Below, one piece after another: positions 1-11,633 of a DNA stretch of 11,633 nt. The notes under the pieces are model-generated. The model had not been told where the DNA came from. It searched no databases and was given only the letters and a program-made list of their open reading frames with translations. The translations under genes were made by a program, and so were the position numbers. Every line of letters begins with the position of its first letter. The stretch's first letter is position 1. This DNA comes from Bacteroidales bacterium (GTDB taxonomy: Bacteria > Bacteroidota > Bacteroidia > Bacteroidales > F082): the NCBI GenBank assembly GCA_016285355.1, contig JAEEQP010000072.1, forward strand, positions 1 to 11,633. The letters are read 5' to 3'.

Positions 1-2
1 CA

Positions 3-152
3 ACCCTCGGCATCTACTGGTCGAGTTCTCTCCATACAGGCTTCCCCGAGCGCGGTTGGAGTTTCCACTACGACCTGGATGAATGCCACGTGTGCGGCAC
101 ATACGAACGTTGTCGTGGACAAGTTGTGCGGGCAGTGCGCGTCTGTCAATAA
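3..152 (+). CDS. C-terminal end of a FISUMP-domain protein (partial, 5' end outside window)
   Basis: An open frame enters from the left edge and stops at TAA 150-152, giving about 49 residues. It contains YWSSS near the start, then a Trp/Phe/Tyr-rich strand (GWSFHYDLD), and ends with a segment resembling the closing VRPVR-type motif of FISUMP (Fibrobacter succinogenes major paralogous) domains, here VVRAVRVCQ. That family is common in Bacteroidota lipoproteins and surface proteins; its biochemical role is unknown to me. Four cysteines (CHVCG, CRG, VCQ) in this short tail are notable. A second gene of the same domain family starts at 1379, so this looks like one of a pair of paralogues now separated by a toxin module. 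The family call rests on a short fragment and on the resemblance to the downstream gene. Confidence 0.6.
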   Translation, partial: TLGIYWSSSLHTGFPERGWSFHYDLDECHVCGTYERCRGQVVRAVRVCQ

Positions 153-166
153 AGTAGCCCGAACAT

Positions 167-201
167 CCAAAGTGGGATTTTGTTGCTATAGCCCACTTCG
201 G
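167..201 (+). terminator. Possible weak terminator after the first FISUMP gene
   Basis: Left arm 167-176 and right arm 192-201 form a 10-bp stem with one mismatch, centred on AAGTGGG/CCCACTT, with a 15-nt loop. It starts 15 bases after the stop codon. The following T tract is short (TTTCGTC), so termination efficiency is doubtful. Confidence 0.35.
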
Positions 202-228
202 TTTCGTCTATGGCCAAGTAACTGTAAA

Positions 229-312
229 TAGTATTTCAAAACACTAACTTTTTGCAAAAAATAATGTTTGAAAACACTAAAATATGATAAAAAATAATGT
301 TTAGAAATACTA
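229..312. repeat. Three 18-bp palindromes at exact 33-bp spacing
   Basis: Dyad-symmetric 18-mers lie at 229-246, 262-279 and 295-312. They follow the form TARTRTTT-NN-AAAYACTA: TAGTATTTcaAAACACTA, TAATGTTTgaAAACACTA and TAATGTTTagAAATACTA. The spacing is exactly 33 bp twice, about three turns of DNA. Copies two and three are each preceded by AAAAAATAATGTTT (256-269, 289-302), so the block also reads as a 33-bp tandem repeat of a little over two units. It lies in AT-rich DNA between the ends of two converging genes, the FISUMP fragment and the AbiEii toxin. It resembles an array of operator sites, but no nearby start codon is an obvious target. Confidence 0.75.
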
Positions 313-346
313 ATTTTGGAATTTATAGACGGAAAGTGGTTGATTT

Positions 347-985
347 TTACGGTTTTTTGTTAAACTTTATGTTTTGGCAGATGGTCATTTCATTCAACCT
401 TGCTGCAATGCTATTCCAATCAAACTTTCCTTGCATCATGACTACATCCTCGTCGAAATTGATGTCGTCGAAATAAATCAATGATTTTGTTGGAACAAGA
501 GGGTTGGATGAAGGATATTTCTGTTTATAGAATTCCAACATTTCGCCAAAATTATAAACCGTTGAAAGATAGGCAATGTCGATGAAATCCTTGATGCGGG
601 AACCATTGTCGCAAATGGTGGACAGTTTCATGGCAACGACATCGGGAAGGCTTTCCATGCGGATGCCTTCTTCCGTTTCAATAGGACAGATGTGCGGGTA
701 ATCGTATCTAATAAGATCAACCATCACCTTTCCGATGAAGCCTTTCAGGGTCTTGCCTTTTTCGTAGCCGACCTTGAAACCATATTGATTGACAAGTAGT
801 TCCTTGATTTCCTGCAAGTCGAAGTCTTCCTTCGAGAACAAATCCAAGTCCACGCTATTGCGGTGACCCAAACGCAAAGCCAAAGAAGTGCCTCCAACCA
901 AGTTGAACGAAGCTAATAGCGGCTCGGATTGGAGCTTTTTTAGCAATTCAAGCGAGCCTGTCTCGATTGTTTCCTTGTGTAGCAT
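347..985 (-). CDS. AbiEii/AbiGii-type nucleotidyltransferase toxin
   Basis: The 212-residue protein belongs to the AbiEii/DUF1814 nucleotidyltransferase family, toxins of type IV or type VII-like toxin-antitoxin systems, some of which modify tRNA and abort phage infection. Visible motifs are GGTSLAL at 31-37 followed by RxSxDxD (R42, S44, D46, D48), the metal-binding nucleotidyltransferase signature; a third acidic residue D90 in VDLIRY; K120 in VVAMKL; and RIKDFID at 130-136, matching the family's KDxxD motif. All catalytic positions appear intact. It starts at ATG 985 inside the 3' end of the upstream partner gene (46-nt overlap), so it is probably translationally coupled and expressed from the same promoter. 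The partner is not the classic AbiEi winged-helix antitoxin. The substrate cannot be told from sequence. Confidence 0.85.
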   Translation of the reverse strand: MLHKETIETGSLELLKKLQSEPLLASFNLVGGTSLALRLGHRNSVDLDLFSKEDFDLQEIKELLVNQYGFKVGYEKGKTLKGFIGKVMVDLIRYDYPHICPIETEEGIRMESLPDVVAMKLSTICDNGSRIKDFIDIAYLSTVYNFGEMLEFYKQKYPSSNPLVPTKSLIYFDDINFDEDVVMMQGKFDWNSIAARLNEMTICQNIKFNKKP

Positions 986-1278
986 TGCAATTCCTCTTTT
1001 TGCAGGTTGAAGTAATGGCAGACGAAATTCATGTCAATGTCTGAAAGGTGGGGGATGGTTTTGATGATTTCACGGAAGCCTTCAAAACCGCCATAAAGGT
1101 CGAAAGCGCCGTAGAAATCTTCAGGCCAACCCAGTTCCACGATACGTTGCACTACAATTGTTTTCGACCGCTGCCAGTCGAAGGTGCTCATGTCGTACTC
1201 CCACAGCAGTGATGTGTTGATGTGGTTGCCGTTGGGGTGGTAGTCGGAGAAAATCGTGTTGTTGTAGGCTGTTGCCAT
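940..1278 (-). CDS. Small partner protein of the AbiEii-type toxin (likely antitoxin, DUF6922-like)
   Basis: A 112-residue protein upstream of and overlapping the nucleotidyltransferase gene. It has LLWEYD at 24-29, then FDW, a VVQRIVELGWPEDFY stretch, YGG and FREIIKTIPHLS, and ends in a Cys/Arg/Lys-rich tail. From memory this matches a small Bacteroidota family (DUF6922-like) found immediately before AbiEii-type toxins; I recognise the family but know of no structure. No membrane segment or signal peptide is visible. Position, overlap and size suggest the antitoxin of the pair, which is inference. ATG 1278 is preceded on the minus strand by a good -7 element (TACTTTTG), leaving a very short leader and supporting this start. 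It is divergent from the lipoprotein gene at 1379. Confidence 0.7.
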   Translation of the reverse strand: MATAYNNTIFSDYHPNGNHINTSLLWEYDMSTFDWQRSKTIVVQRIVELGWPEDFYGAFDLYGGFEGFREIIKTIPHLSDIDMNFVCHYFNLQKEELQCYTRKQSRQARLNC

Positions 1279-1297
1279 TGCTTTTGGATTGTGACTG

Positions 1298-1317
1298 CAA
1301 AAGTAATAATTTTACTT
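1298..1317 (-). promoter_or_regulatory. Promoter -7 element and overlapping dyad for the AbiEii module
   Basis: On the minus strand TACTTTTG (1305-1298) matches TAnnTTTG exactly, about 20 bases before the antitoxin start at 1278. A dyad, AAGTAA-TAATT-TTACTT (1301-1317), overlaps it and could be an autoregulatory operator. No convincing -33 TTTG is seen. Confidence 0.55.
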
Positions 1318-1347
1318 CGGAATGAAGTTGATGAGGATTATTTTTTG

Positions 1348-1355
1348 TTTCTTTG
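1348..1355 (+). promoter_or_regulatory. Probable -7 element for the FISUMP lipoprotein gene
   Basis: TTTCTTTG differs from TAnnTTTG at one position and lies 23 bases before ATG 1379. A TTG at 1328-1330 could serve as a weak -33 element. A promoter here lies downstream of the earlier in-frame ATG at 1322, supporting the later start. Confidence 0.4.
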
Positions 1356-1378
1356 CAAAGTCTAAAACCAACAATAAG

Positions 1379-2023
1379 ATGAACAAATCTACAAAGGTCA
1401 TAGCAGCTTTACTATTCATTGGAATAATTGTTACGTTTATAGGATGTGATGGAAATAGAGAAAACGGCAGAATCAATGGCCATGCTTATGTTGACTTGGG
1501 TTTGCCTAGTGGTACACTTTGGGCTACTTGTAATATGGGAGCTGGTTCTCCTGAAGATTATGGTGGATATTATATTCTAGGACAGGATATTAAAAAGCAC
1601 TTGTATGAATATTACAAAGATGGTGATGTTGAAAAATACTATATGTGTCATGAATTAAACCATCTTGTTGAAGTGTTTGGTGTTGAAGAAAAAGTTGATT
1701 GGAATTTCAGTTGGCATTTACCACGAATGGAGGATTTCGAAGAGTTGATAACAAATTGTAGTTGTGAGAAGATAGAACTGAAAGGTGTGAGCGGATGCTT
1801 ATTTGTCGCACCTAATGGCAATAGCCTCTTCTTGCCTAGTGCTGGTTATTGCGTAGATGGAAAGTTGTTTGGTTTAGGTGAAATGAATTATTATCGTCTT
1901 AGTCCTATTTCTGCATCATCATTTGATGCTTGGATTACGAATGCTAATTTAGGTAGTGGAGGTTTTGGTAGTGGATTTCAAGATTGTGGATTGTCTGTGC
2001 GGCCAGTATGTTCCTCGAAATGA
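1379..2023 (+). CDS. FISUMP-domain lipoprotein
   Basis: Starting at ATG 1379 the protein has 214 residues. MNKSTK, a hydrophobic stretch and FIGC with Cys23 form a lipoprotein signal peptide, so the protein is probably lipidated and exported. An in-frame ATG at 1322 would add 19 residues ahead of this signal and is less likely. The mature part begins with GHAYVDLGLPSGTLWATCN (34-52), a characteristic opening of FISUMP/DUF1566-like domains in Bacteroidota, continues with WHLPRMEDFEEL and LFLPSAG, and closes with GLSVRPVCSSK. Function is unknown; the domain is thought to act in surface display. The canonical YWSSS-type strand is replaced by a diverged stretch (AWITNAN). The gene is visibly more AT-rich than htpG. 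It is followed by a strong terminator and appears monocistronic. Confidence 0.75.
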   Translation: MNKSTKVIAALLFIGIIVTFIGCDGNRENGRINGHAYVDLGLPSGTLWATCNMGAGSPEDYGGYYILGQDIKKHLYEYYKDGDVEKYYMCHELNHLVEVFGVEEKVDWNFSWHLPRMEDFEELITNCSCEKIELKGVSGCLFVAPNGNSLFLPSAGYCVDGKLFGLGEMNYYRLSPISASSFDAWITNANLGSGGFGSGFQDCGLSVRPVCSSK

Positions 2024-2041
2024 TAGAATTGTAACAATAAT

Positions 2042-2090
2042 AATCCCCGCAGCGCCGAGAAGTTTAGTGGCATTGCGGGGATTTCTTTTT
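2042..2090 (+). terminator. Rho-independent terminator after the lipoprotein gene
   Basis: A perfect 10-bp stem, AATCCCCGCA (2042-2051) with TGCGGGGATT (2074-2083), has a 22-nt loop and is followed by TCTTTTTG. It lies between the stop at 2023 and the convergent end of htpG at 2104, so it may also limit read-through from htpG, though the T tract favours the plus strand. Confidence 0.75.
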
Positions 2091-2103
2091 GCTTGAAGCA
2101 TGA

Positions 2104-4023
2104 TTACAGTTTCTCCATATTCCTCTTGACAAATTCGCTCAAATCCTTGCCCTTCAGTAAATTTTTCGATAGCAGTGCGAGGTCGTAAATCTGCCTGATG
2201 GTGGCTTCCTGCTCGGCTTCGTCCTTGTCCAAGAGGCCGGTGATGATGGGGCTGTTGGTATTGAGCATCAGCGTATAGCTGTCGGGCATGGAGCCGTAGA
2301 ACGACATCGGGCCGCCGCCCATCTGCTCCATCTCCTTCATACGGCGCATCCACTCGTTTTGTGTGACCTCCACAGGAGCATCGGTCTCGCCTTCGTTGCT
2401 GAACTCCACGTTGAAACGAACCTTGTCGATGACCTTTTCGAAAGCGGCTTTCAGGGTCTCCTTCTGTTTGTCGTCGAGCTTCGATTCAGCTTCCTTTTCG
2501 TCCTTTACGATGAGTTTGTCAATCGTGTTGGAGTCCACTCGGGCAAACATGGCACGGCTGTCGTCGCCCTTCTCGCCTTCCTTTTGCTCGTAGGCGCTGA
2601 TGAAATGCGGGTCGAGGATGCCGTCCATCATCAGGACGTTGTAGCCCTTGGCCTTGGCGTTCTCGATGTTGGTGTACTGGTCGTCCTTGTCGGTGGCATA
2701 CAGATAGACGAGCATCTTGTCCTTGTTGGTCTGCTGCTCCTTGATGAGGGTCTTGTATTCCTCGATGGTATAGTACTTGTCGTCGGTGTCCTTGAAGAGG
2801 AAGAACTTCTCGGCGCGCTCGTAGAACTTCGGGTCGCTCATCATGCCGTATTCGATGAACACGCGGATGTCGTCCCAGTTCTTCTCGTAAGCCTCGCGGT
2901 CTTTCTTGAAGAGCTCTTCGAGTTTCTCGGCCACCTTCTTGGTGATGTAGGTCGAGATTTTCTTCACGTTCTGGTCGCTTTGCAGGAACGAGCGGCTGAC
3001 GTTCAGTGGGATGTCGGGCGAGTCGATGACGCCGTGCAGTAGCGAGAGGAACTCGGGCAGGATGCCTTCCACGCTGTCGGTGACGAAGACCTCGTTGCAG
3101 TAGAGTTGTATCTTGTTGCGCTGGAACTCGTAGCGGTTCTTCACCTTCGGGAAATAGAGGATGCCCGTGAGGTCGAAGGGATAGTCCACGTTGAGGTGGA
3201 TGTGGAACAGCGGCTCGCCAAAGTTCATCGGGTAGAGCACATGGTAGAAGTCGTTGTATTCCTCGTCCTTGATGTCGGTTGGGGCTTTTTTCCACAGCGG
3301 AGCCACATCGTTGATGATCCAAGGCTTTTCAACTTCTTTGGTCTTGGGTTTGCCGTCTTTGTCGGTCTCGCCCTCGATTTCCTCCTGCACCTTTCGTGTG
3401 CCGAACTGAATCGGGATGGGCAGGAACTTGCAGTATTTGTTGAGCAGCTCACGGATGCGGCCTTCTTCGAGGAACTCGGAGGCATCGTCGGCGATGTAAA
3501 GGATGACGTCGGTGCCGCGGTCGCCCTTCGGAATTTCGTTCATGGTGTACTCTGGGCTACCGTCGCATTCCCAAATGACGCCGTTCTTGCCTTCTTCCTT
3601 GCAGGATTTCGAAATCAGCGCCACCTTCGAGGAGACCATGAAGGCGGAATAGAAGCCCAAGCCAAAATGTCCGATGATGTTGGCGGCCTCGGCCTCACTT
3701 TGCGTCTTGAATTTGGCGATGAATTCCTCCGCGCCCGAGAAAGCGATTTGGTTGATATACTTGTCGACTTCTTCGGCGTTCATGCCTATACCGCGGTCGC
3801 GGACGGTGAGGGTCTTTTTCTTCTTGTCGACTTCCACCTTAATAGTAAGGTCGCCCAATTCACCTTTGAACTCACCCGAGGCGGCGAGGGCTTTCAGCTT
3901 CTGTGTGGCATCCACGGCGTTACTGATGATTTCGCGCAGGAAGATCTCCTGGTCCGAATACAAGAACTTCTTGATGACAGGGAAAATGTTTTCTGTCTTT
4001 ACTCCAATGTTACCTGTTTGCAT
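2104..4023 (-). CDS. htpG: Hsp90-family chaperone HtpG
   Basis: HtpG is the bacterial Hsp90: a cytoplasmic, ATP-driven dimeric chaperone that helps late folding of client proteins. From ATG 4023 it has 639 residues. The N-terminal GHKL ATPase domain shows E31 in FLREIISNAVDA (catalytic Glu and the N35 region), DRGIGM at 76-81 and GHFGLGFYSAF at 118-128. The middle domain has NVSRSFLQ near 341-348, with R343 in the position of the catalytic Arg. A C-terminal dimerisation region follows, with a Met-rich stretch (about 559-573). The length is a little below the roughly 680 residues usual in Bacteroides, without an obvious gap in core motifs. An upstream in-frame ATG at 4077 would add SRSLESRVYLKFKIQID, which falls in the repeat-rich leader, so 4023 (MQTGNIGVKTENIF) is preferred. 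It is transcribed alone from a promoter-like region at 4130-4167. Confidence 0.97.
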   Translation of the reverse strand: MQTGNIGVKTENIFPVIKKFLYSDQEIFLREIISNAVDATQKLKALAASGEFKGELGDLTIKVEVDKKKKTLTVRDRGIGMNAEEVDKYINQIAFSGAEEFIAKFKTQSEAEAANIIGHFGLGFYSAFMVSSKVALISKSCKEEGKNGVIWECDGSPEYTMNEIPKGDRGTDVILYIADDASEFLEEGRIRELLNKYCKFLPIPIQFGTRKVQEEIEGETDKDGKPKTKEVEKPWIINDVAPLWKKAPTDIKDEEYNDFYHVLYPMNFGEPLFHIHLNVDYPFDLTGILYFPKVKNRYEFQRNKIQLYCNEVFVTDSVEGILPEFLSLLHGVIDSPDIPLNVSRSFLQSDQNVKKISTYITKKVAEKLEELFKKDREAYEKNWDDIRVFIEYGMMSDPKFYERAEKFFLFKDTDDKYYTIEEYKTLIKEQQTNKDKMLVYLYATDKDDQYTNIENAKAKGYNVLMMDGILDPHFISAYEQKEGEKGDDSRAMFARVDSNTIDKLIVKDEKEAESKLDDKQKETLKAAFEKVIDKVRFNVEFSNEGETDAPVEVTQNEWMRRMKEMEQMGGGPMSFYGSMPDSYTLMLNTNSPIITGLLDKDEAEQEATIRQIYDLALLSKNLLKGKDLSEFVKRNMEKL

Positions 4024-4050
4024 ATCGATTTGTATTTTGAATTTCAAATA

Positions 4051-4119
4051 GACTCGGGACTCGAGACTGCGGGACACGAGACGATGGGAACGTCTCGCGT
4101 CTCGTGTCTCGAAGACTCG
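4051..4119 (-). promoter_or_regulatory. Structured, repeat-rich 5' leader of htpG
   Basis: The region is built of repeated GACTCG, GAGAC and GTCTCG modules. The best stem pairs 4073-4083 (GACACGAGACG) with 4098-4108, an 11-bp perfect helix with a 14-nt loop; a competing 7-bp stem pairs CGAGACG (4077-4083) with CGTCTCG (4091-4097). It lies between the inferred promoter and the start codon, so it would be transcribed as a strong hairpin in the leader. Whether it regulates htpG is unknown. Confidence 0.55.
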
Positions 4120-4129
4120 CGTCCGATAG

Positions 4130-4167
4130 TCAAATTGTGTGCCATTGGGAAAACTGACATTTTGGCA
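4130..4167 (-). promoter_or_regulatory. Possible sigma-54-like promoter and upstream dyad for htpG
   Basis: Read on the minus strand, TGGCACACAATTTGA (4144-4130) matches the -24/-12 form TGGCAC-N5-TTGC at the right spacing, with the final C replaced by A. Just upstream, TGCCAAAATGTCA (4167-4155) is a near-palindrome with five-base arms and one mismatch, a possible regulator site. No TAnnTTTG element better explains htpG transcription here. The assignment is tentative. Confidence 0.4.
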
Positions 4168-4204
4168 AGGAATTGCTGTTTTGAATCGAGGGAAAAATGT
4201 GTTA

Positions 4205-4251
4205 TATCCAGCGGTGAACGACTAAATTACCATGTTCGCCGCTGGATAAAA
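4205..4251. repeat. Hairpin repeat A, left side of the ATPase cassette
   Basis: Arms 4205-4219 (TATCCAGCGGTGAAC) and 4234-4248 form a 15-bp stem with one G-T pair and a 14-base loop. The 47-bp unit is identical at 42 positions to repeat C at 5840-5886, in the same orientation. AAAAATGTGTT lies before it, as also before repeat B, and ATAGGGTA (4270-4277) follows 18 bases after it, as also after repeat C. Confidence 0.9.
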
Positions 4252-4286
4252 GCACTTTTTTGAAGAAAAATAGGGTAAAAAAATGT

Positions 4287-4338
4287 GTTTTATTCAGCGG
4301 TGAACGCATGTTTTTGTATCTTTGCCGCTGAATAAAAC
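4287..4338. repeat. Hairpin repeat B, overlapping the ATPase promoter
   Basis: Arms 4287-4300 (GTTTTATTCAGCGG) and 4325-4338 pair perfectly over 14 bp, extending to 18 with wobble pairs. It shares AGCGGTGAACG with repeats A and C but has a different loop, which contains the promoter element. It ends eight bases before the ATPase start codon. Confidence 0.9.
4317..4324 (+). promoter_or_regulatory. -7 promoter element of the ATPase gene
   Basis: TATCTTTG is a perfect TAnnTTTG match, 22 bases before ATG 4347. It lies in the loop and inner right arm of hairpin B. The predicted transcript would begin near 4330, inside the right arm, so the full hairpin would not be present in the RNA. No clear -33 TTTG is seen. 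Confidence 0.65.
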
Positions 4339-4346
4339 GATGTTTT

Positions 4347-5795
4347 ATGGTGAATATCATTGGCAGAAAAGACGAGATTTCGGAAATCAAACGACTGTAT
4401 TCCAGTAAAATGCCACAGTTTTTAGCGGTATATGGCCGTCGTCGAGTGGGAAAGACTTTTCTTGTGGACGAGGCATTGAAGGGAAAAATCACCTTCCGCC
4501 ATTCGGGATTATCGCCCGTGGACGAGCAAAACCACAAGAACAGCCTGAAAGAGCAACTGAAGCACTTTTATCTGTCGCTGCAGCGGCAGGGCATGAAGAA
4601 AAGCAAGTGTCCGACATCGTGGCTTGAAGCTTTCTTTATGTTGGAAATGCACCTTCAATCAATTGATGACGGCTCGCGGCAAGTGGTTTTCCTCGATGAA
4701 TTACCTTGGATGGACACACCTCGTTCGGGCTTTGTCACGGCTTTGGAGGCTTTGTGGAACGGCTGGGGCTGCCATCGTGACAATTTCATGTTGGTGGTCT
4801 GCGGCTCGGCAACTTCTTGGATTACTGACAACCTTATTAATAATCATGGAGGCTTGTATGGAAGGCTTACCGGTCAGTTGAGGCTGTCGCCGTTTACCCT
4901 CAATGAGTGTGAACAGTTCTTTCACAGCAAGGGTATTCGAATGTCGCGTTACGATATTGTGCAAAGTTATATGATATTTGGCGGTGTACCGTATTATCTG
5001 AGTTATTTTGAGTCAGGCAGAAGTCTTGCGCAGAATGTTGATAACTTGTTTTTTAAGAAGAATGCGGTGTTGAGTGATGAGTTCGAGCGCTTGTTTTCTT
5101 CCGTGTTTTCGAGACCTGATGAAATGAAGCAAATCGTGAAGGTTCTTGGCAATAGGAGATCAGGTTATACTCAGGAAGAGCTTGCGAGAGCTGCAGGACT
5201 GACAGGGGGCGGCTCTTTCAGCACGATGTTGAAGGCACTCGTCGCCGGTGATTTCATTGAGTCGTACATCCCTTTCGGAAAAGGAAAACGGGAGAAGCAT
5301 TACAAATTGATAGACCATTTTTGCCTGTTTTACATGAAGTTCGTGCAAGGTAGAAAGGAGATTGATCCTGAGTTTTGGATGCACAATGTGACTTCGCAAG
5401 GTGTATCTTCATGGCGGGGCTTTGCGTTTGAGGAAGTGTGTTTTACGCATATCCGGCAGATTAAGAACTCACTCAATATTCTTGGTGTTTCATCAACGGA
5501 GTCGGCATGGGTGGTTAAAGGGGAAGACGAGACTGAAGGAGCGCAAATTGACATGTTGATCAATCGCAAAGACAATGTTGTGAACCTCTGCGAGATGAAG
5601 TTTTACAACGAGAAATATACGGTCAGCAAGGCCTATTATTCAAAGGTTGTTCATCGTCAGAACCTGTTAGAAGAGATGATACCGCGTCGGGCTGTTGTTC
5701 ATAATGTGTTAGTGACCACTGAAGGCTTGACTTATAATGAGTACAGCGGCGTTTTCCAAAATGTAATCACCGTTGATGATTTGTTTGAGAAATGA
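4347..5795 (+). CDS. AAA-type ATPase with DUF234 nuclease-like C-terminus
   Basis: This 482-residue protein belongs to the archaeal-type ATPase (PF01637) plus DUF234 (PF03008) family, which is abundant and multicopy in many Bacteroidota. It opens with IIGRKDEI, followed by Walker A GRRRVGKT (30-37), Walker B VVFLDE (113-118), a sensor-like CGSATSW (152-158) and the conserved YGRLTGQLRLSPF (171-183). A winged-helix-like segment follows at about 258-320 (YTQEELARAAGL). The C-terminus has WRGFAFEEVC (356-365), D402 in AQIDMLI and E416-x-K418 in LCEMKF, matching a PD-(D/E)xK nuclease active site. No signal peptide or membrane helix is seen. Its physiological role is not established. It stands alone, with its own promoter, between hairpin repeats A/B and C, and looks like a self-contained accessory cassette between htpG and the surface-protein gene. 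ATG 4347 fits the promoter position and the family N-terminus. Confidence 0.85.
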   Translation: MVNIIGRKDEISEIKRLYSSKMPQFLAVYGRRRVGKTFLVDEALKGKITFRHSGLSPVDEQNHKNSLKEQLKHFYLSLQRQGMKKSKCPTSWLEAFFMLEMHLQSIDDGSRQVVFLDELPWMDTPRSGFVTALEALWNGWGCHRDNFMLVVCGSATSWITDNLINNHGGLYGRLTGQLRLSPFTLNECEQFFHSKGIRMSRYDIVQSYMIFGGVPYYLSYFESGRSLAQNVDNLFFKKNAVLSDEFERLFSSVFSRPDEMKQIVKVLGNRRSGYTQEELARAAGLTGGGSFSTMLKALVAGDFIESYIPFGKGKREKHYKLIDHFCLFYMKFVQGRKEIDPEFWMHNVTSQGVSSWRGFAFEEVCFTHIRQIKNSLNILGVSSTESAWVVKGEDETEGAQIDMLINRKDNVVNLCEMKFYNEKYTVSKAYYSKVVHRQNLLEEMIPRRAVVHNVLVTTEGLTYNEYSGVFQNVITVDDLFEK

Positions 5796-5839
5796 CAAAT
5801 TTTTGATAATAAATCAGTTGCATTTCAGAAAATATCTTT

Positions 5840-5886
5840 TATCCAGCGGTGAACGACCAAATTACCCCATTCACCGCTGGATAAAA
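5840..5886. repeat. Hairpin repeat C, right side of the ATPase cassette
   Basis: Arms 5837-5853 (TTTTATCCAGCGGTGAA) and 5870-5886 form a perfect 17-bp stem with a 16-base loop, 44 bases after the ATPase stop. It is the closest relative of repeat A, including most of the loop, and is followed by ATAGGGTA (5900-5907) as A is. There is no T-run directly after the stem, so it is a poor rho-independent terminator, though it may still hinder read-through. Confidence 0.9.
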
Positions 5887-5916
5887 CTATGTTTTTGAAA
5901 TAGGGTAGCGATTAAT

Positions 5917-5950
5917 TTTGACCTTGGTATCAAAACAATCCCTATTTTTG
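5917..5950 (+). promoter_or_regulatory. Promoter of the T9SS surface-protein gene
   Basis: TATTTTTG (5943-5950) matches TAnnTTTG, with TTTG at 5917-5920 as the -33 element, 22 bases away. Transcription would start near 5957, about 20 bases before ATG 5977. It lies just outside the repeat C flank. Confidence 0.65.
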
Positions 5951-5976
5951 TAGCCAAATATCAAAACTAACCGAAT

Positions 5977-8460
5977 ATGAAAAAACTGTATGCAATGATT
6001 GCGATGTGGCTTCTGATGGGAAGTGCATCCGCCCAAGTTCTTGTCAATGAGACTTTTGAAAATGGTAACACTGTAGGCCAGACTCCAGTAGGCTGGATTG
6101 GTGATGGTGGCTGGAAAGCTGGTATCACCATTCCTGACGACAACGAAGCCCGAGGGAGAAAGCCACATACCGGCGACTGGTATATGTATGCTACCTATAA
6201 TACCGATGTGTGGATTTACAAGGAAATCAATGTGACCGCAGGAAACTACTATCGTGTGTCGTTCTGGTATGCTACCTGGCATGTCGACCACTTCAACATG
6301 GAAGTCAAAGCCGGTGCAAGTGCTAATCCTTCGGCGATGACGGTGGCAGCGGTGCCGATGATGGTGGTCGACAACGAAGAATATGAGCAGACCTCGGGTG
6401 TGTTCCAGGCCACAAGTTCCGGCTCTTTCTATGTGGGATTCCACAGCGTGGCCGACAATGGGCCTTGGTACTTGTCCATCGATGACATCATCATCGAGCA
6501 GACCGCGCAGTATCATTTCAATGTGGAGCAACTCACAGCCGATACTTCTGTCTATTTCGGCGAGCCTGCCTATCTGCGTTTCCGCCTCAGCAATACAGGC
6601 GAACAATCGGATACTTATCAGTTCAACAGCACAGGTGCCTTGCCGATTGAGTTCTATCAGAATGGCGCGCAAGTGAGCCAGGTCAGTTTGCCTTACAACG
6701 GTTCGGTGGAACTGGTGGCCAAGACGACTTTGCCCATGAATCTGAACAACAATGAAATAGTTCATGCTACCTTTGATGTGGTCTCTAACCATTCTGCCCC
6801 GACACAAAGTGCTGATTTCCAAATTACCGCTTTGGCACCTTATAATAATTACCCCTTGGAAGAAGGTTTCGAGAATGCCTTTGTGCCTTTTGGTTGGCAG
6901 AACAATATTACCAACGGTACTTACGCCTTTGACAGGCGCGAATCGAGCTCCACACCGAGTGCTATGCCGCATGAGGGAAGCCAATATATGGCCCGATTCT
7001 ATACCTACACCAATCCCGAAGGCTGCTCAGCTGAATTGGTCTCGCCCAAGTTAGAACTGAACGCACAAGATAACATCGTTCGTTTCTGGATGTTCCGCAA
7101 CAGCAATCCGAATATCAACCGCCCCGACCGTATCAATGTGTACTATAATTCGGTGCCGAGCTCGGAAGGCGGCCAACTGTTAGGCACTGTCCACCGCTGC
7201 ACTTATTTGGAGCCCGTCATTGCTGATGTGGACGACTGGTATGAGTATTCTTTCACCTTCGACAGCCCAACGGGTTATGGCTTTGTTGTTTTTGAAGGTG
7301 TGAGTGGTTATGGCTGGGACCTCCTTATTGACGACATCTTCATCAACAATTCATCGGAAGACTACGAGGCTCCCACTGTGATTGCTGTCACTGGAAACCA
7401 GACCTACGCCGACACTGAGATGAACCTCACTTTGCGTGTCCATGATGCATCGGATATGCCTGCCACCTTGTCGGCCACCTATACCATTTGGGGTGTGAGC
7501 CACGATTTGACTTTCACTCGCGCTGGTAAGGGCAATTACGACTACACGGCCACCATTCCCGCCTACGACAACCACACTCACGGCACAATGATAGTGCAAT
7601 TGGTAGATGCTTTGGGCAACAGTGCTACATCGGAGGAGATTCCGATCCGTTGGGACTATCAGCGTCCTTTGCTTTTTGAAACCTTTGAGGACTGCACTTT
7701 GTACGGTCTTCCTGAAGGCTGGACTACCGACGGCAACCCGACATGGTGGGATTGGAGTTTCCAAGGTACGGTGTATTACACGGACTATTACGAAGAAGAT
7801 TTCATCGTCTCGCCCCATCGTGGCAATAAGCAAGCCGTGCTGGAATGGGATAATAGCGAGAGTCCTTCGGCACAAGACCAAACCTTGATTACTCCTGTGC
7901 TGACCATCACAAGACCCACCGTGTTGCAGTTCTGGACCTGGGTGCAATACGGCACCGATGGTTACGACCACTTTGCAGTTCGTGTGTACGACACCTACAA
8001 TGGCACTTGGGATGATAAATGGGATGCTGCCGACATGCCTTACGGACAAATCAACGCTTACGATGAGCCCATTTCCATCAACTTGGACGAGTACATCGGG
8101 AAGAATATCAAGATTGGTTTTAGAGGCTACAACAGCTTTGGCGAGTTTTTGGCCTTTGACTGGTTTGTTGACGATGTGAAAGTCGTGCCGACTGACACTA
8201 CTGATGTGAATGTGAATGAATTGGCTGCACTGAAACTGAATGTTTATCCCAATCCCGCCAAGGATGTAGTTTGCATTGAGGCTGCGAAAAACATTCAAAA
8301 TGTGCAACTCATGGGTATCAATGGCGTGATGTTGGAGGACAGAAAGACCAATTCTAATAAGGTGGAGTTGAACCTTGAAGGTTATTCCAAAGGTATCTAT
8401 GTTGTTCGCATCGTGACCGAAGATGGAGTTTCGACCCAAAAAATCAATCTGATTGAATAG
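5977..8460 (+). CDS. Type IX-secreted, multi-domain adhesin-like surface protein
   Basis: The 827-residue protein starts with a signal peptide (MKKLYAMIAMWLLMGSASA, cleavage before Q20 or V21) and ends with a T9SS C-terminal sorting domain (about 750-827: VYPNPAKD, then GIYVVRIVTEDG). It should cross the inner membrane by Sec and the outer membrane by the Por/T9SS system. Between them are three jelly-roll modules of the cleaved-adhesin/MAM-like type at roughly 21-175, 290-458 and 565-738. Each opens with a FE(N/D) strand and GW and ends with an aromatic-rich DD strand (YLSIDDIII, WDLLIDDIF, FDWFVDDVK). Two Ig-like segments (about 180-285 and 463-558) separate them. No protease or glycosidase active site is seen, so binding to matrix, host or carbohydrate is more likely than catalysis; the ligand is unknown. 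Its stop overlaps the next gene's start, suggesting co-transcription. Confidence 0.85.
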   Translation: MKKLYAMIAMWLLMGSASAQVLVNETFENGNTVGQTPVGWIGDGGWKAGITIPDDNEARGRKPHTGDWYMYATYNTDVWIYKEINVTAGNYYRVSFWYATWHVDHFNMEVKAGASANPSAMTVAAVPMMVVDNEEYEQTSGVFQATSSGSFYVGFHSVADNGPWYLSIDDIIIEQTAQYHFNVEQLTADTSVYFGEPAYLRFRLSNTGEQSDTYQFNSTGALPIEFYQNGAQVSQVSLPYNGSVELVAKTTLPMNLNNNEIVHATFDVVSNHSAPTQSADFQITALAPYNNYPLEEGFENAFVPFGWQNNITNGTYAFDRRESSSTPSAMPHEGSQYMARFYTYTNPEGCSAELVSPKLELNAQDNIVRFWMFRNSNPNINRPDRINVYYNSVPSSEGGQLLGTVHRCTYLEPVIADVDDWYEYSFTFDSPTGYGFVVFEGVSGYGWDLLIDDIFINNSSEDYEAPTVIAVTGNQTYADTEMNLTLRVHDASDMPATLSATYTIWGVSHDLTFTRAGKGNYDYTATIPAYDNHTHGTMIVQLVDALGNSATSEEIPIRWDYQRPLLFETFEDCTLYGLPEGWTTDGNPTWWDWSFQGTVYYTDYYEEDFIVSPHRGNKQAVLEWDNSESPSAQDQTLITPVLTITRPTVLQFWTWVQYGTDGYDHFAVRVYDTYNGTWDDKWDAADMPYGQINAYDEPISINLDEYIGKNIKIGFRGYNSFGEFLAFDWFVDDVKVVPTDTTDVNVNELAALKLNVYPNPAKDVVCIEAAKNIQNVQLMGINGVMLEDRKTNSNKVELNLEGYSKGIYVVRIVTEDGVSTQKINLIE

Positions 8461-9730
8461 GGGAGAAGCACATAGGAAAAGAGTTCCGCTTTTTGCCAAG
8501 ATTTTACTTGGCATGGGCATGGGTCTTGGTTTTGGCTTTTTAGCCATGGCCTTGCATTGGGATGATTTTGTGCGCGATTGGGTGGCTCCGTTTGGAGCCA
8601 TCTTTATGCGCCTGCTCAAGTTGATTGCCGTGCCGTTGGTGCTGGTTTCACTTGTTTTGGGTGTGGTAAGTTTAAAGGATATTCGCAACCTGTCACGCAT
8701 TGGAATGAAAACCATACTGATATATGTTTGCACCACCATCATTGCGGTGAGCATCGGACTTGTCACGGTGAACCTTATCAAACCTGGACAATTATTCCCA
8801 AAGGACAAGCAGACCGAGTTTGTGGAGCGTTACCAGCAGACGGTTACGGAACGCCAGAACCAGATGCAGCAAGTGATGGACGACTCTCCTTTGCAGTTTG
8901 TCGTTGACATGGTGCCTGAGAATGTCTTTGAGGCGTTCAGCAGCAATTCCAACATGCTACAAGTCATTTTCTTTGCTTTGATCTTTGGTGTGGCCTTAAT
9001 TTGTGTGGGACAATCACGGACGGCTTCAGTAGTGCGCTTTTTCCAACAGCTAAATCTCATCTTGCTGAAAATCATTGACTTTATCATGGCTTTTGCGCCC
9101 ATCGGGGTTTTTGCCTTGATGGCTGCTTTGATTGTGGACTACGCAGGCGATTTGGGCATCATTTCCGCTTTGGGTATGTATGCCCTGACAGTGGTTTTGG
9201 CCTTGGCCGTGATCATTTTCTTAATCTATCCCACACTTTTGCGCATTTTCAGCAAAAAGAAGCTCGGCCAGTTCTTCAAGGCAGTGTTTCCTGTGCAGAT
9301 GCTGGCTTTTTCGACCAGTTCGAGTGCGGCCACTTTGCCCTTGACGATGGAACGGACGCAAAAACATTTGGGTGTTTCGGAGGAGGTCTCCAGTTTCGTG
9401 CTTCCTGTGGGCGTGACCATCAACATGGACGGCACGAGTTGTTATCAGGCTGTGGCGGCGGTGTTTTTGGCTCAAGTGATTGGCTTGGACTTGACCTTTG
9501 GTCAGATGTTACTCATTTTGGCCACGGCCACCATCTCGTCTATCGGTACGCCAGGCATTCCTGGAGGTTCCATCGTCATGCTGATGATAGTGCTCGACTC
9601 GGTCGGCATCCCGATTGAGGGTTTGGCACTCATTTTGGGCATTGACCGGCCTTTGGACATGCTACGGACAGTGGTCAATGTGACAGGCGATACCACAGTG
9701 GCCTGCATCGTCGATGATACGAAAAAATAG
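8453..9730 (+). CDS. Dicarboxylate/amino acid:cation symporter (DAACS family)
   Basis: An inner-membrane Na+- or H+-coupled transporter of the glutamate/aspartate/C4-dicarboxylate family, 425 residues from TTG 8453. Family hallmarks are present: the hairpin-1 serine motif SSSAATLP (289-296), NMDGT (324-328), hairpin-2 GTPGIPGG (365-372) and DRPLDMLRTVVNVTGD (398-413). D402, R405, N409 and D413 align with the substrate- and cation-binding residues of GltPh; R405 points to an acidic substrate such as aspartate, glutamate or a dicarboxylate. A polar, Gln-rich loop lies at 111-150. No ATG occurs before M21 at 8513, which would cut into the first helix, and TGA immediately precedes 8453, so a TTG start overlapping the upstream gene by 8 nt is most likely. 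The convergent PIN gene ends 4 nt beyond the stop. Confidence 0.9.
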   Translation: MNRGEAHRKRVPLFAKILLGMGMGLGFGFLAMALHWDDFVRDWVAPFGAIFMRLLKLIAVPLVLVSLVLGVVSLKDIRNLSRIGMKTILIYVCTTIIAVSIGLVTVNLIKPGQLFPKDKQTEFVERYQQTVTERQNQMQQVMDDSPLQFVVDMVPENVFEAFSSNSNMLQVIFFALIFGVALICVGQSRTASVVRFFQQLNLILLKIIDFIMAFAPIGVFALMAALIVDYAGDLGIISALGMYALTVVLALAVIIFLIYPTLLRIFSKKKLGQFFKAVFPVQMLAFSTSSSAATLPLTMERTQKHLGVSEEVSSFVLPVGVTINMDGTSCYQAVAAVFLAQVIGLDLTFGQMLLILATATISSIGTPGIPGGSIVMLMIVLDSVGIPIEGLALILGIDRPLDMLRTVVNVTGDTTVACIVDDTKK

Positions 9731-9734
9731 TCTT

Positions 9735-10193
9735 TCATTGTAAAGTTTCTTTACACTTATTTTTTTGCTGTCTCAAATCAAACTCGCAAAGTTCGTCATA
9801 AAACTCGCGCAGCCTTTTTACTTTGACAGGTGGGAAAGGGCTGGTTTTGAGAACGTTGAAATGACTATCTTCGGTAACGATGTAGTCGGCGTTAGCAACA
9901 ACAGCGCAATCGACAAACTTGTTGTCGTCGGGGTCAGTGGTTATCATGTTGAATTGGTAATGCGCATCCACTCTGATGACATTGTTGGCTCGCAAGATGG
10001 CTTCTATGGCAATGTTGGCGGCCAAGGGCGACATGTGCGAGGCAATGATTTCCTCGTATTCCTCTAAAATCGAGTTCGAGATGCAAAGTGTGTATTTTCC
10101 AAGTACAAAGTCTTCCCAAACCTTGTAATAGGTGCTTCGTCTTGACAAGGATTGAAGCAAACAATTGGTATCGAGCACAATGTATCGGTTCAT
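9735..10193 (-). CDS. PIN-domain toxin (COG1569-like)
   Basis: A 152-residue PIN ribonuclease of the putative TA toxin, PIN family (COG1569) type. PIN toxins are Mg2+-dependent RNases that cut RNA when freed from their antitoxin. Acidic residues fall where expected: D8 in VLDTN, E44/E45 in LEEYEE, D90 in DPDDNKF with D95 in FVDCA, and D109 in VTEDSHF. Start ATG 10193 overlaps the antitoxin stop as ATGA; an in-frame ATG at 10274 lies inside the antitoxin gene and adds unrelated residues. The last six residues (CKETLQ) are encoded by the palindrome at 9739-9755, which also occurs upstream of the module, so this C-terminus may derive from the repeat. The cellular target is unknown. Confidence 0.85.
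   Translation of the reverse strand: MNRYIVLDTNCLLQSLSRRSTYYKVWEDFVLGKYTLCISNSILEEYEEIIASHMSPLAANIAIEAILRANNVIRVDAHYQFNMITTDPDDNKFVDCAVVANADYIVTEDSHFNVLKTSPFPPVKVKRLREFYDELCEFDLRQQKNKCKETLQ
9739..9766 (+). terminator. Palindrome that is also a likely terminator for the symporter
   Basis: TGTAAAG-TTT-CTTTACA (9739-9755) forms a 7-bp stem with a 3-nt loop, followed by CTTA and a run of seven T (9760-9766). It begins 9 bases after the symporter stop. It lies inside the PIN gene's final codons on the other strand. Its reverse complement is identical to the 17-mer at 10536-10552. Confidence 0.65.
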
Positions 10194-10420
10194 ACTCTTG
10201 GCCGATAAGGTGTGCGCATGTGTTCGTGGCTCCATTGGGCGACTTTTTCTTCGGTGAGGTCGCCGCTGTCCCAAAGCCTATCAATCTCTTTCTGCAAGCG
10301 CGAGTTCAGGAACTGCACAATGACATTCTTCAATGCGGCAATGTCTTCTTCTTGCGTGATGCAGGAAAGCATGTTGAGCACTTCATATTGTGCAGGAGAA
10401 ATGGTGGTAAGTTGTGCCAT
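10190..10420 (-). CDS. Antitoxin partner of the PIN toxin
   Basis: A 76-residue protein from ATG 10420 (MAQLTTISPAQYEVLNMLSC). It matches the small proteins found directly upstream of COG1569 PIN toxins in Bacteroidota: a short N-terminal segment, a helix with EEDIAALKNVIVQFLNSRLQKEIDRLW (about 24-50), then EEKVAQWSHEHMRTPYR. The acidic helical part plausibly wraps the toxin, and no classical DNA-binding fold is evident, so a role in autorepression is uncertain. An in-frame ATG at 10495 precedes the likely promoter and is rejected. The TGA at 10192-10190 overlaps the toxin ATG by 4 nt, giving tight coupling and antitoxin-first order. Confidence 0.75.
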   Translation of the reverse strand: MAQLTTISPAQYEVLNMLSCITQEEDIAALKNVIVQFLNSRLQKEIDRLWDSGDLTEEKVAQWSHEHMRTPYRPRV

Positions 10421-10444
10421 GATGTTGTTGGTTGTTACAATGGG

Positions 10445-10452
10445 CAAAATTA
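10445..10452 (-). promoter_or_regulatory. -7 promoter element of the PIN toxin-antitoxin operon
   Basis: On the minus strand TAATTTTG (10452-10445) matches TAnnTTTG, about 25 bases before the antitoxin ATG at 10420, giving a short leader. No strong -33 TTTG is seen. Confidence 0.55.
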
Positions 10453-10501
10453 TACATTTTTTCGGATACGGAAAGAATTGATTTGTCTGTTTCATTGGAT
10501 T

Positions 10502-10561
10502 TGTAAAGTGTCACTGTAAAATTTCTTTACACCACTGTAAAGAAACTTTACACTTTTTACA
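10502..10561. repeat. Cluster of TGTAAAG palindromes between the divergent PIN module and efflux gene
   Basis: Two full palindromes, TGTAAAATTTCTTTACA (10515-10531) and TGTAAAGAAACTTTACA (10536-10552), lie exactly 21 bp apart. They are flanked by half-sites TGTAAAGTG (10502-10510) and CACTTTTTACA (10551-10561). The second palindrome equals the minus-strand sequence at 9755-9739, so this element brackets the PIN module. The cluster lies between two divergent promoters and could serve either as an operator. Confidence 0.8.
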
Positions 10562-10599
10562 ATGGTGGTTTTTATAAATAATTGGTTTTTAGTGCTTTA

Positions 10600-10607
10600 T
10601 AATTTTG
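10600..10607 (+). promoter_or_regulatory. -7 promoter element of the efflux gene
   Basis: TAATTTTG matches TAnnTTTG, 45 bases before ATG 10653. The -33 element is weak. The predicted transcript starts near 10614 and would include the hairpin at 10627-10651. Confidence 0.5.
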
Positions 10608-10626
10608 GCATGATTTATGGTTGCCC

Positions 10627-10651
10627 ATGCACATCTTTTAATCATGTGCAT
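10627..10651 (+). promoter_or_regulatory. Hairpin abutting the efflux gene start codon
   Basis: ATGCACAT (10627-10634) and ATGTGCAT (10644-10651) form a perfect 8-bp inverted repeat with a 9-base spacer, ending one base before ATG 10653. In the RNA it would occlude the ribosome-binding region; as DNA it could be a repressor operator. Confidence 0.55.
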
Positions 10652-10652
10652 T

Positions 10653-11633
10653 ATGAAAGCAAGCAAAATCATCACCCTTTCGACCCTGTTTTTGATGACG
10701 GGCACGAGCCTCATGGCGCAGGACACCGTCACGATGAACCTCAAGGAATGTATGCGCTATGCAGTGGAGCATTCCACCAAAATCCGTATCCAGCAGGCCG
10801 ACAACCGAGACGCGCAAATCAACCGCCGCGACGCCATCCTGAACGCCTTCACGCCCGAGGTGAGCGGTGGCACCAACGCTTATTACAACTTCGGTCGTAG
10901 TATCGACCCCGAGACGAACACCTATAGCGTGGTCACCTCGTTCCACAATGGTTACAGCCTCTCGGGCGGAATCGTCTTGTTTAACGGTTTCCAGGCCGTC
11001 AACAATTTAAAGATTACCAAGACGGCGCAACTGATGGGCTTCACCAAAGAGCAACAACTGGAAGACCAAATCTGCCTTGCCACGATGGAGGCCTACTGCA
11101 ATGTGCTTTACTACACCGAATTGGAGAAGGCTTTGCGGGCGCAGGTGACCACGGCGGAGAAGGCCGTGCAACTCGCCACAAAGCAAGAACAATTAGGCCA
11201 AAAGTCTCACGCCGATGTGGTGCAAGTGCAGAGCGACCTCGCCGAAAAACAGTATTTGCTTACTACTTGCCGCAACAACCTTAACAACGCCATCATCACT
11301 CTGAAGGATGTGATGTTTTGGCCTATTGAGGAACCTTTGAAAATTGATGGTTTGGATGTAGGACTGTCACATCGTGGCAGCCCTACAGGAACCCCGGATG
11401 ATGTTTCGTTGTTGGTCAGTCGGGCCAAACAATGGCTGCCCGAGGTGGCCTTGGCCGAGGGCACGATGAAGAACGCCCGCCTCGCCTTGAAGACGGCCCG
11501 CTGGCAACTGCTGCCCACTTTGTCGCTCTATGGCGGCTGGTCGTCGAGCTACTTCACCTATCCGGGCAAGGAGGGCTATGTGCCGACACCATTTATGGAT
11601 CAAATCAAGAACAATAGGGGAGAGTATATACAG
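10653..11633 (+). CDS. TolC-family outer-membrane efflux protein (partial, 3' end outside window)
   Basis: The frame is open from ATG 10653 to the window end, 327 residues with no stop; the family usually has 430-500, so roughly the last third is missing. MKASKIITLSTLFLMTGTSLMA is a Sec signal peptide, with likely cleavage before Q23. The mature protein begins VTMNLKECMRYAVEHSTKIRIQQAD (about 26-50), the typical opening of an outer-membrane efflux repeat, then a beta segment with NFGRSIDPETNTYS and a long coiled-coil stretch (about 120-218) with QLGQKSHADVVQVQSDLAEKQY. The second repeat begins near WLPEVALAEGTMKNARL (261-277). Such proteins form the trimeric exit duct of RND or ABC-type efflux and type I secretion systems; partner genes would be expected downstream, outside the window. 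Codon usage appears GC-richer than in the adjoining PIN module. Confidence 0.92.
   Translation, partial: MKASKIITLSTLFLMTGTSLMAQDTVTMNLKECMRYAVEHSTKIRIQQADNRDAQINRRDAILNAFTPEVSGGTNAYYNFGRSIDPETNTYSVVTSFHNGYSLSGGIVLFNGFQAVNNLKITKTAQLMGFTKEQQLEDQICLATMEAYCNVLYYTELEKALRAQVTTAEKAVQLATKQEQLGQKSHADVVQVQSDLAEKQYLLTTCRNNLNNAIITLKDVMFWPIEEPLKIDGLDVGLSHRGSPTGTPDDVSLLVSRAKQWLPEVALAEGTMKNARLALKTARWQLLPTLSLYGGWSSSYFTYPGKEGYVPTPFMDQIKNNRGEYIQ

Follow-up and report, generated by a model that had tools for sequence, protein, structure and literature searches.

The literature describes PDC-S27 as an ATPase that carries a fused PD-(D/E)XK-superfamily domain (PMC12988326) and places it among the abundant defence candidates of archaea and rumen microbes (PMC12988326; PMC13356809), most such candidates being experimentally unvalidated (PMC12988326). 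The accessible parts of these two papers give no mechanism for PDC-S27 and mention no palindromes, cassette limits or mobility. The gene considered here lies on a contig of a Bacteroidales bacterium (assembly GCA_016285355.1, JAEEQP010000072.1, positions 1 to 11,633; this whole stretch of 11,633 nucleotides is referred to as the window). Its product belongs to PDC-S27: profile PDLC04984 (PDC-S27) matches residues 1-480 of 482 (642 bits, E 1.2e-193), and ATPase_2 is combined with a PD-(D/E)XK-like domain. In contrast to the published descriptions, the window family, a large one of presumed antiviral genes looked at here in rumen bacteria, has palindromes and unit limits. This layout points to a gene cassette that recognises itself and that may be a mobile element of a new kind. 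Private palindromes of this ATPase family find no mention in titles, abstract openings and passages outside subscription papers and preprints, which is not proof of their absence. The features of the unit are as follows, the palindromes and the promoter box being read directly from the sequence (genomes and loci of relatives carry our own G and L numbers):

4190-5916, + strand: the whole unit, being the interval missing from the empty site of G087, where about 35 nt stand instead.
4202-4251, + strand: palindrome A, the upstream boundary copy, a direct repeat with C, inside the 71-nt repeat 4194-4264.
4288-4337, + strand: palindrome B, the promoter copy, its 3' edge 9 nt ahead of the ATG.
4317-4324, + strand: TATCTTTG, a match to the -7 box inside B, fitting TAnnTTTG.
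4347-5795, + strand: the ATPase-nuclease gene, 482 aa (PF01637 ATPase_2; PADLOC PDC-S27; AlphaFold2 mean pLDDT 91).
5115-5309, + strand: codons of a winged helix-turn-helix, residues 257-321 with recognition helix 289-300 (predicted secondary structure, domain assigned by eye).
5493-5771, + strand: codons of the PD-(D/E)XK-like domain, residues 383-475 (motif read by eye).
5837-5886, + strand: palindrome C, the downstream boundary copy, in the direct repeat 5829-5899.

Two other described systems come close in layout. According to the accessible text of one paper, REPtrons (RAYT/TnpA-REP) have one gene per palindrome type, with the palindromes beside the gene and more than one type per genome, and do not transpose as a unit (PMC6006769). 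The window family likewise has a gene flanked by its own specific palindrome family, but the protein joins an ATPase to a PD-(D/E)XK-like domain and is not an HUH-Y1 protein, the two palindrome types counted here are not dispersed as those of REPtrons are, and some units do change place. IS200/IS605 elements have hairpins in direct orientation and are not known to duplicate their target. Their hairpins lie near both ends, as the same accessible text has it (PMC6006769). Such subterminal hairpins have counterparts in A and C of the window, and in 29 of 60 paralogues with cognate palindromes on both sides; however, the window unit has no Y1 transposase, the counted palindrome types are not multi-copy, and in many members no downstream palindrome was found, the shared DNA ending at the stop codon. 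The layout resembles a REPtron or an IS200/IS605 end and is a member of neither, because the enzyme differs and the counted palindromes are not dispersed. Type II toxin-antitoxin systems are autoregulated two-gene operons, whereas a single long gene stands between the palindromes here. A sequence search of the PDB with the protein gave nothing at E 0.01, and the matches of the archaeal ATPases 2qen (PABY2304) and 2fna (SSO1545) stop short of the model's C-terminal PD-(D/E)XK-like part.

A, B and C are three 50-nt palindromes on one strand that bracket the single gene. A preliminary description, made from the sequence alone, had reported A and C as near-identical hairpins in the same orientation with shared flanking words, and each of these points was confirmed. 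A (4205-4251) and C (5840-5886) agree at 42/47 positions on the same strand and at 44/50 over the full length (A against B, 37/50; B against C, 34/50), and the outer 17 nt pair at 15/17 positions in A and in B and at 17/17 in C. Within the window ATAGGGTA has just two occurrences, at 4270 and 5900, and so has AAAAATGTGTT, at 4193 and 4279. A repeat search returned one 71-nt direct-repeat family (4194-4264, 4280-4350 and 5829-5899), and no Rfam family reached the gathering score. B carries the promoter and is as much part of the layout as A and C; a 50-nt palindrome of its promoter type was found in 38 of the 100 units examined, window included. A counterpart of A lies 85-86 nt 5' of B in eight close relatives (L001-L007, L062), and C also stands behind the gene in L001 and L004 and is absent there in the others.

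The encoded protein combines an ATPase of AAA/STAND-like type with a winged helix and a PD-(D/E)XK-like domain, these calls being made partly by eye. The preliminary description had named an ATPase/DUF234 protein with a plausible nuclease site. Pfam agrees on the ATPase (ATPase_2, PF01637) and gives no match to DUF234, and the site holds good insofar as D402, E416 and K418 of the C-terminal strands, a motif read by eye, are invariant across 60 homologues. The ATPase is the sole long gene between A and C and no Y1 TnpA was found, in keeping with the reported lack of a transposase; no recombinase was seen among the window proteins scanned, which took in part of the open reading frames (ORFs).

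To set the window beside its family, 79 loci of relatives were fetched, and the nine genomes of the closest loci were found to hold 9, 31, 39, 14, 25, 14, 28, 38 and 14 ATPase matches. Sixty paralogues were taken from the 92 matches of four of these nine genomes, being the better-scoring among the matches listed; the window-type gene was excluded. Within 180 nt upstream, 46 of the 60 reach an arm score of at least 12, compared with 2 of 300 dinucleotide shuffles and 11 of 158 genes of other kinds; the corresponding downstream counts are 33/60, 0/300 and 30/154. Since the paralogues score so far above the shuffles on both sides, a chance origin of the palindromes at the family genes is excluded. 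With a looser cut, 53 paralogues had a cognate upstream palindrome, 29 had one on both sides and five had none. The layout is a family rule, and it does not hold for two control families drawn from these four genomes: DUF4143 ATPases had palindromes upstream in 6/28 and downstream in 7/28 (28 of 30 fetched loci usable), with cognate arms in one of the three loci bearing both, and AbiEii genes in 0/24 and 4/24 (24 of 26 usable). Among the 75 of 79 fetched loci with at least 150 nt upstream, grouped by record title, an upstream arm score of at least 12 was found in 37/53 Bacteroidota-type, 7/19 Firmicutes-type and 0/3 other loci. DUF4143 domains are themselves abundant, with 53, 31, 25 and 39 matches in G003, G005, G004 and G009, and the palindrome rule does not hold for the 28 such genes examined.

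The arms are private to each unit. By a stricter cut, upstream and downstream arms match in 28 of the 31 units with both palindromes, compared with 4 of 288 non-cognate comparisons within genomes, and upstream arms are common to only 3 of 392 same-genome pairs of units; most family members in one genome use different arms. The copies are also confined. In the nine closest genomes, window-type palindromes with up to two mismatches all lie at the ATPase locus (eight genomes; in the ninth, G008, the contig begins inside the ATPase gene), and the 12 three-mismatch hits away from that locus equal the total for a reversed control. The exact window-type palindrome is present in 11 of the 99 genomes of the genus survey, as an intact unit at htpG in seven, as a gutted unit in G054 and G063, and as a solo copy in G029 (3.5 kb from htpG, no ATPase) and G028 (elsewhere, no ATPase within 6 kb). 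The CGCCCAAAT-type palindrome is likewise present in 11 of the 99. For these two types, the ones counted genome-wide, copies are limited to about one region per genome. The supposition that the repeats would not occur widely without the ATPase thus stood for both counted types, while solo copies lacking the gene do exist. A slightly diverged solo window-type copy was also noted near htpG in G066.

The position of the palindromes bears on how they act. The TATCTTTG match inside B fits TAnnTTTG, which we take to be the Bacteroidetes -7 promoter box. A box of this form within 75 nt of the start was found in 47 of the 53 units with an upstream palindrome and in 5% of mononucleotide shuffles; it lies 3' of the palindrome in 41 of the 47 and inside it in six, so that no unit would transcribe the palindrome from this box, the scan taking only the TAnnTTTG nearest the start and allowing for a promoter further upstream. 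Because the box is inside or 3' of the palindrome in all 47 scorable units, the palindrome probably acts as DNA and not as RNA. The mRNA-hairpin and terminator readings were rejected on this observation together with the confinement of the counted types and the private arms. The helical phasing of the arms is broad (21-40 nt centre to centre, mode 30) and would fit a dimer on B-form DNA as well as an extruded hairpin.

Judging from residues that differ together with the arms, the protein's winged helix is likely to bind its own palindromes. In a comparison picked after the data had been seen, window-type proteins (n = 9, arms CAGCGG) and relatives with TTTCTG arms (n = 6) showed 31 clade-fixed differences, five of them in residues 288-294 at the start of the recognition helix, a clustering that arises anywhere in 0.5% of random draws. 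N288 is found in all four promoter-type units with GCTG arms (L015, L017, L019, L033) and in none of the 34 other promoter-type units. Among the top 25 mutual-information pairs, 12 involve arm positions 8-12, six of them in residues 276-287 and six elsewhere; summed mutual information per protein column was uninformative, all values being near 0 (22 non-redundant of 38 units).

Empty sites define the unit from outside. Between htpG and the surface-protein gene, where the preliminary description had proposed to compare strains with and without the ATPase, three sites lacking it bound the unit near A and C. Left limits fall at 4168-4189 and right limits at 5917-5933 (G087, G044 and G039, the right match in G039 being weak, score 21). 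In the clearest case, L235, homology to the window covers 4119-4189 on the left and 5917-5986 on the right; the limits are 4169|5933 in L236 and 4168|5930 in L237, the latter with a weak right match. Exact insertion points cannot be set from these sites, since the intergenic DNA diverges. The discrete cassette bounded by the repeats is borne out by limits close to A and C, but shared DNA often ends elsewhere in relatives. In 25 cross-genome pairs it ends within 10 nt of the outermost cognate palindrome in 9/23 upstream and 3/13 downstream; in 11 of the 12 pairs lacking a called cognate palindrome downstream, it ends no more than 17 nt from the stop codon.

In all eight close relatives with the htpG side sequenced, the window-type unit is found on that side and no further than about 3.5 kb from htpG, and so is largely inherited in place. 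A probe of the htpG 5' end matched in 90 of the 99 genus genomes. Thirty htpG loci were read for up to about 1.5 kb onward: the gene is present in five, palindromes accompany a gutted gene in three, and no ATPase is in view in 22, among which L190 has the gene further along (per L004) and L208 shows only 0.3 kb; the surface-protein gene begins less than 300 nt on in L194, L217 and L218, the three empty sites to which the window was aligned. Other units have moved. When 11 orthologous pairs were compared over larger flanks, sharing was limited to the unit in four (L139/L160, L129/L152, L144/L168 and L172/L182), one partner in each of the last two having a left flank shorter than 0.8 kb. The second unit of L221 is missing from G059, G063 and G001, with right limits agreeing within 2 nt, and its third unit is replaced by about 0.9 kb of other DNA in G002, G007 and G008 (left limits 17467-17468, right limits 19097-19118). 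Units of gene plus palindromes are thus gained, lost and sometimes relocated as a block.

Palindromes also persist without an intact gene. The CGCCCAAAT type, which has the same doublet layout downstream as upstream, accompanies a full unit in G003, G005, G007, G063 and G013, stands without a cognate ATPase in the stretch read in G002, G066, G068, G029 and G073, and in G008 lies on a contig that ends too early to judge. Four of the five ATPase-less sites (not G073) lie within about 3 kb of radA, 8 nt away in G068, as do the full units of G007, G063 and G013; radA was called by NCBIfam TIGR00416, three of the seven calls being partial ORFs. A further cognate palindrome 1.0 kb (G002) and 3.4 kb (G007) past the doublet brackets other genes. 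Gutted window-type units have lost the interior, keeping the first 11-12 codons in L001, L238, L248 and L363 and the last 12-55 codons in L001, L238, L247 and L363; in L001 the gutted copy is in tandem with an intact one. In another paralogue, of G002 (L239 3640-3860), a deletion joins the loop of the promoter-side palindrome to the last 95 nt of the gene (about 31 codons).

Closely similar ORFs of 140-143 aa are inserted in the gutted window-type units of L001 (1626-2048), L247 and L248, adjoined by a 124-aa ORF in L001 and L248. A GIY-YIG-like motif can be read in these ORFs by eye; a GIY-YIG identity for the 140-aa ORF was set aside, the L001 copy giving no Pfam or NCBIfam hit.

We hold it probable that the locus is a single-gene cassette, inherited as a unit, whose protein binds its own palindromes and represses itself. 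The ATPase would bind through its winged helix, and binding at B would cover the promoter, so that the gene would repress itself; A and C, from comparison with relatives, mark the ends of the block that is gained, lost or relocated. Cross-talk between family members would not be expected, because most of those in one genome use different arms. Movement could be due to the ATPase-nuclease working at its palindromes, or to the host recombining the direct repeats. A reaction catalysed by the ATPase-nuclease at the unit's ends would account for the second copy, for the solo copies and for the precise boundaries in those places where they are seen; recombination by the host would account for solo copies too. 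The benefit to the cell, if any, may be antiviral, going by the PDC-S27 label. Several observations weigh against this account. Cognate palindromes stand on both sides of only 29 of the 60 paralogues, 31 lacking one on one or both sides, and homology ends away from the called palindromes in 14/23 pairs upstream and 10/13 downstream. At least one flank is common to 7 of the 11 orthologous pairs, no target-site duplication was seen by eye, and the two counted palindrome types show no multi-copy burst. The helix comparison, besides being post hoc, has a second cluster of clade-fixed residues at 14-26, and when all 100 units are considered, N288 turns up in a further 22 whose arms are different. 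A partial Mantel scan of protein against arm similarity (100 of 140 units, selected for an intact frame, an arm score of 11 or higher and no less than 120 nt upstream; of their 4950 pairs, the 4297 below 60% identity) peaked at r 0.123 at residues 264-284, within the winged helix, and was not significant (200 permutations, 95% maximum 0.146). Recognition by the encoded protein, as first proposed, has the clade differences in the recognition helix in its favour and not the scan. Mobilisation by the protein, first proposed alongside it, is conjectural, the window-type unit being largely inherited in place. All genomes compared are drafts or metagenome bins.

A bolder proposal, which we put forward tentatively, is that these units form a mobile-element class of their own. 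An AAA/STAND-like ATPase joined to a PD-(D/E)XK nuclease would recognise its private palindromes and cut or rejoin DNA at them to excise, insert or exchange its cassette. If so, much of the catalogued PDC-S27 would consist of such elements, each lineage having evolved a new palindrome and a matching winged helix. The same observations could come from nothing but an autoregulated gene, possibly for defence, with private operators; the downstream copies would then have arisen by duplication in tandem and decayed, units would have been relocated through horizontal transfer or ordinary homologous recombination, and the DNA ends would at no time be acted on by the protein. Upstream palindromes are indeed commoner than downstream ones (53 against 31 of 60) and placed at the promoter, L001 holds a gutted copy next to an intact one, and most orthologous pairs (7/11) share a flank; we regard this as rather unlikely all the same, given that downstream arms still match (28/31), that the CGCCCAAAT type keeps the doublet layout of its upstream side, that in four of the 11 pairs sharing is confined to the unit amid unrelated neighbourhoods, and that palindromes persist without the gene. 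Alternatively, the palindromes might be recombination sites of some other enzyme, integron-like or a host tyrosine recombinase, with the ATPase as one cargo of several, as DUF1016/YhcG pieces between same-type palindromes in L005 and genes between cognate palindromes in G002 and G007 would allow. This appears improbable, however: the arms are private to each ATPase and differ between clades together with recognition-helix residues, two other gene families in the same genomes break the rule, and the part of the window ORFs that was scanned includes no recombinase. The attC core of integron cassettes is GTTRRRY, and it was not seen by eye in A, B or C. Generic repeats of the REP or MITE (miniature inverted-repeat transposable element) type, or transcription terminators, flanking the gene by coincidence are exceedingly improbable. 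The palindromes are intergenic and about 50 nt long, like REP (repetitive extragenic palindromic) sequences, but B overlaps the promoter box 9 nt ahead of the start codon, and there is no Rfam match; the counted types contradict this idea, and the REP reading was rejected as they are not dispersed and the arms are private per paralogue.

A private DNA site for each paralogue offers a cheap and direct way to learn if these genes serve defence, are selfish cassettes, or do both, and the winged helices with their palindromes form a natural series, ready as a dataset for decoding protein-DNA specificity.

Other features were noted around the unit. A long palindrome at 4051-4124, located between htpG and A and with its arms at 4057-4083 and 4098-4124, represents a dispersed repeat, with matches of about 70 nt recurring across many contigs of the genus genomes. 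At 347-1278 of the window, an AbiEii-type nucleotidyltransferase and a DUF6922 neighbour make up a further pair of defence or toxin-antitoxin-like character. Next to the ATPase unit in L005, two ORFs at 1742-3107 correspond to the N- and C-terminal parts of DUF1016/YhcG (PADLOC PDC-S02) and sit between two window-type palindromes. A PIN_3 toxin-like gene with a 101-aa neighbour (9735-10558 of the window, minus strand) is bracketed by the palindrome TGTAAAGAAACTTTACA or a near-form of it, a single copy lying behind (9739-9755) and two adjacent copies ahead (10515-10531 and 10536-10552). The exact TGTAAAGAAACTTTACA palindrome gave 23 hits in seven of nine related genomes, several of them paired about 20 nt or a few kb apart.
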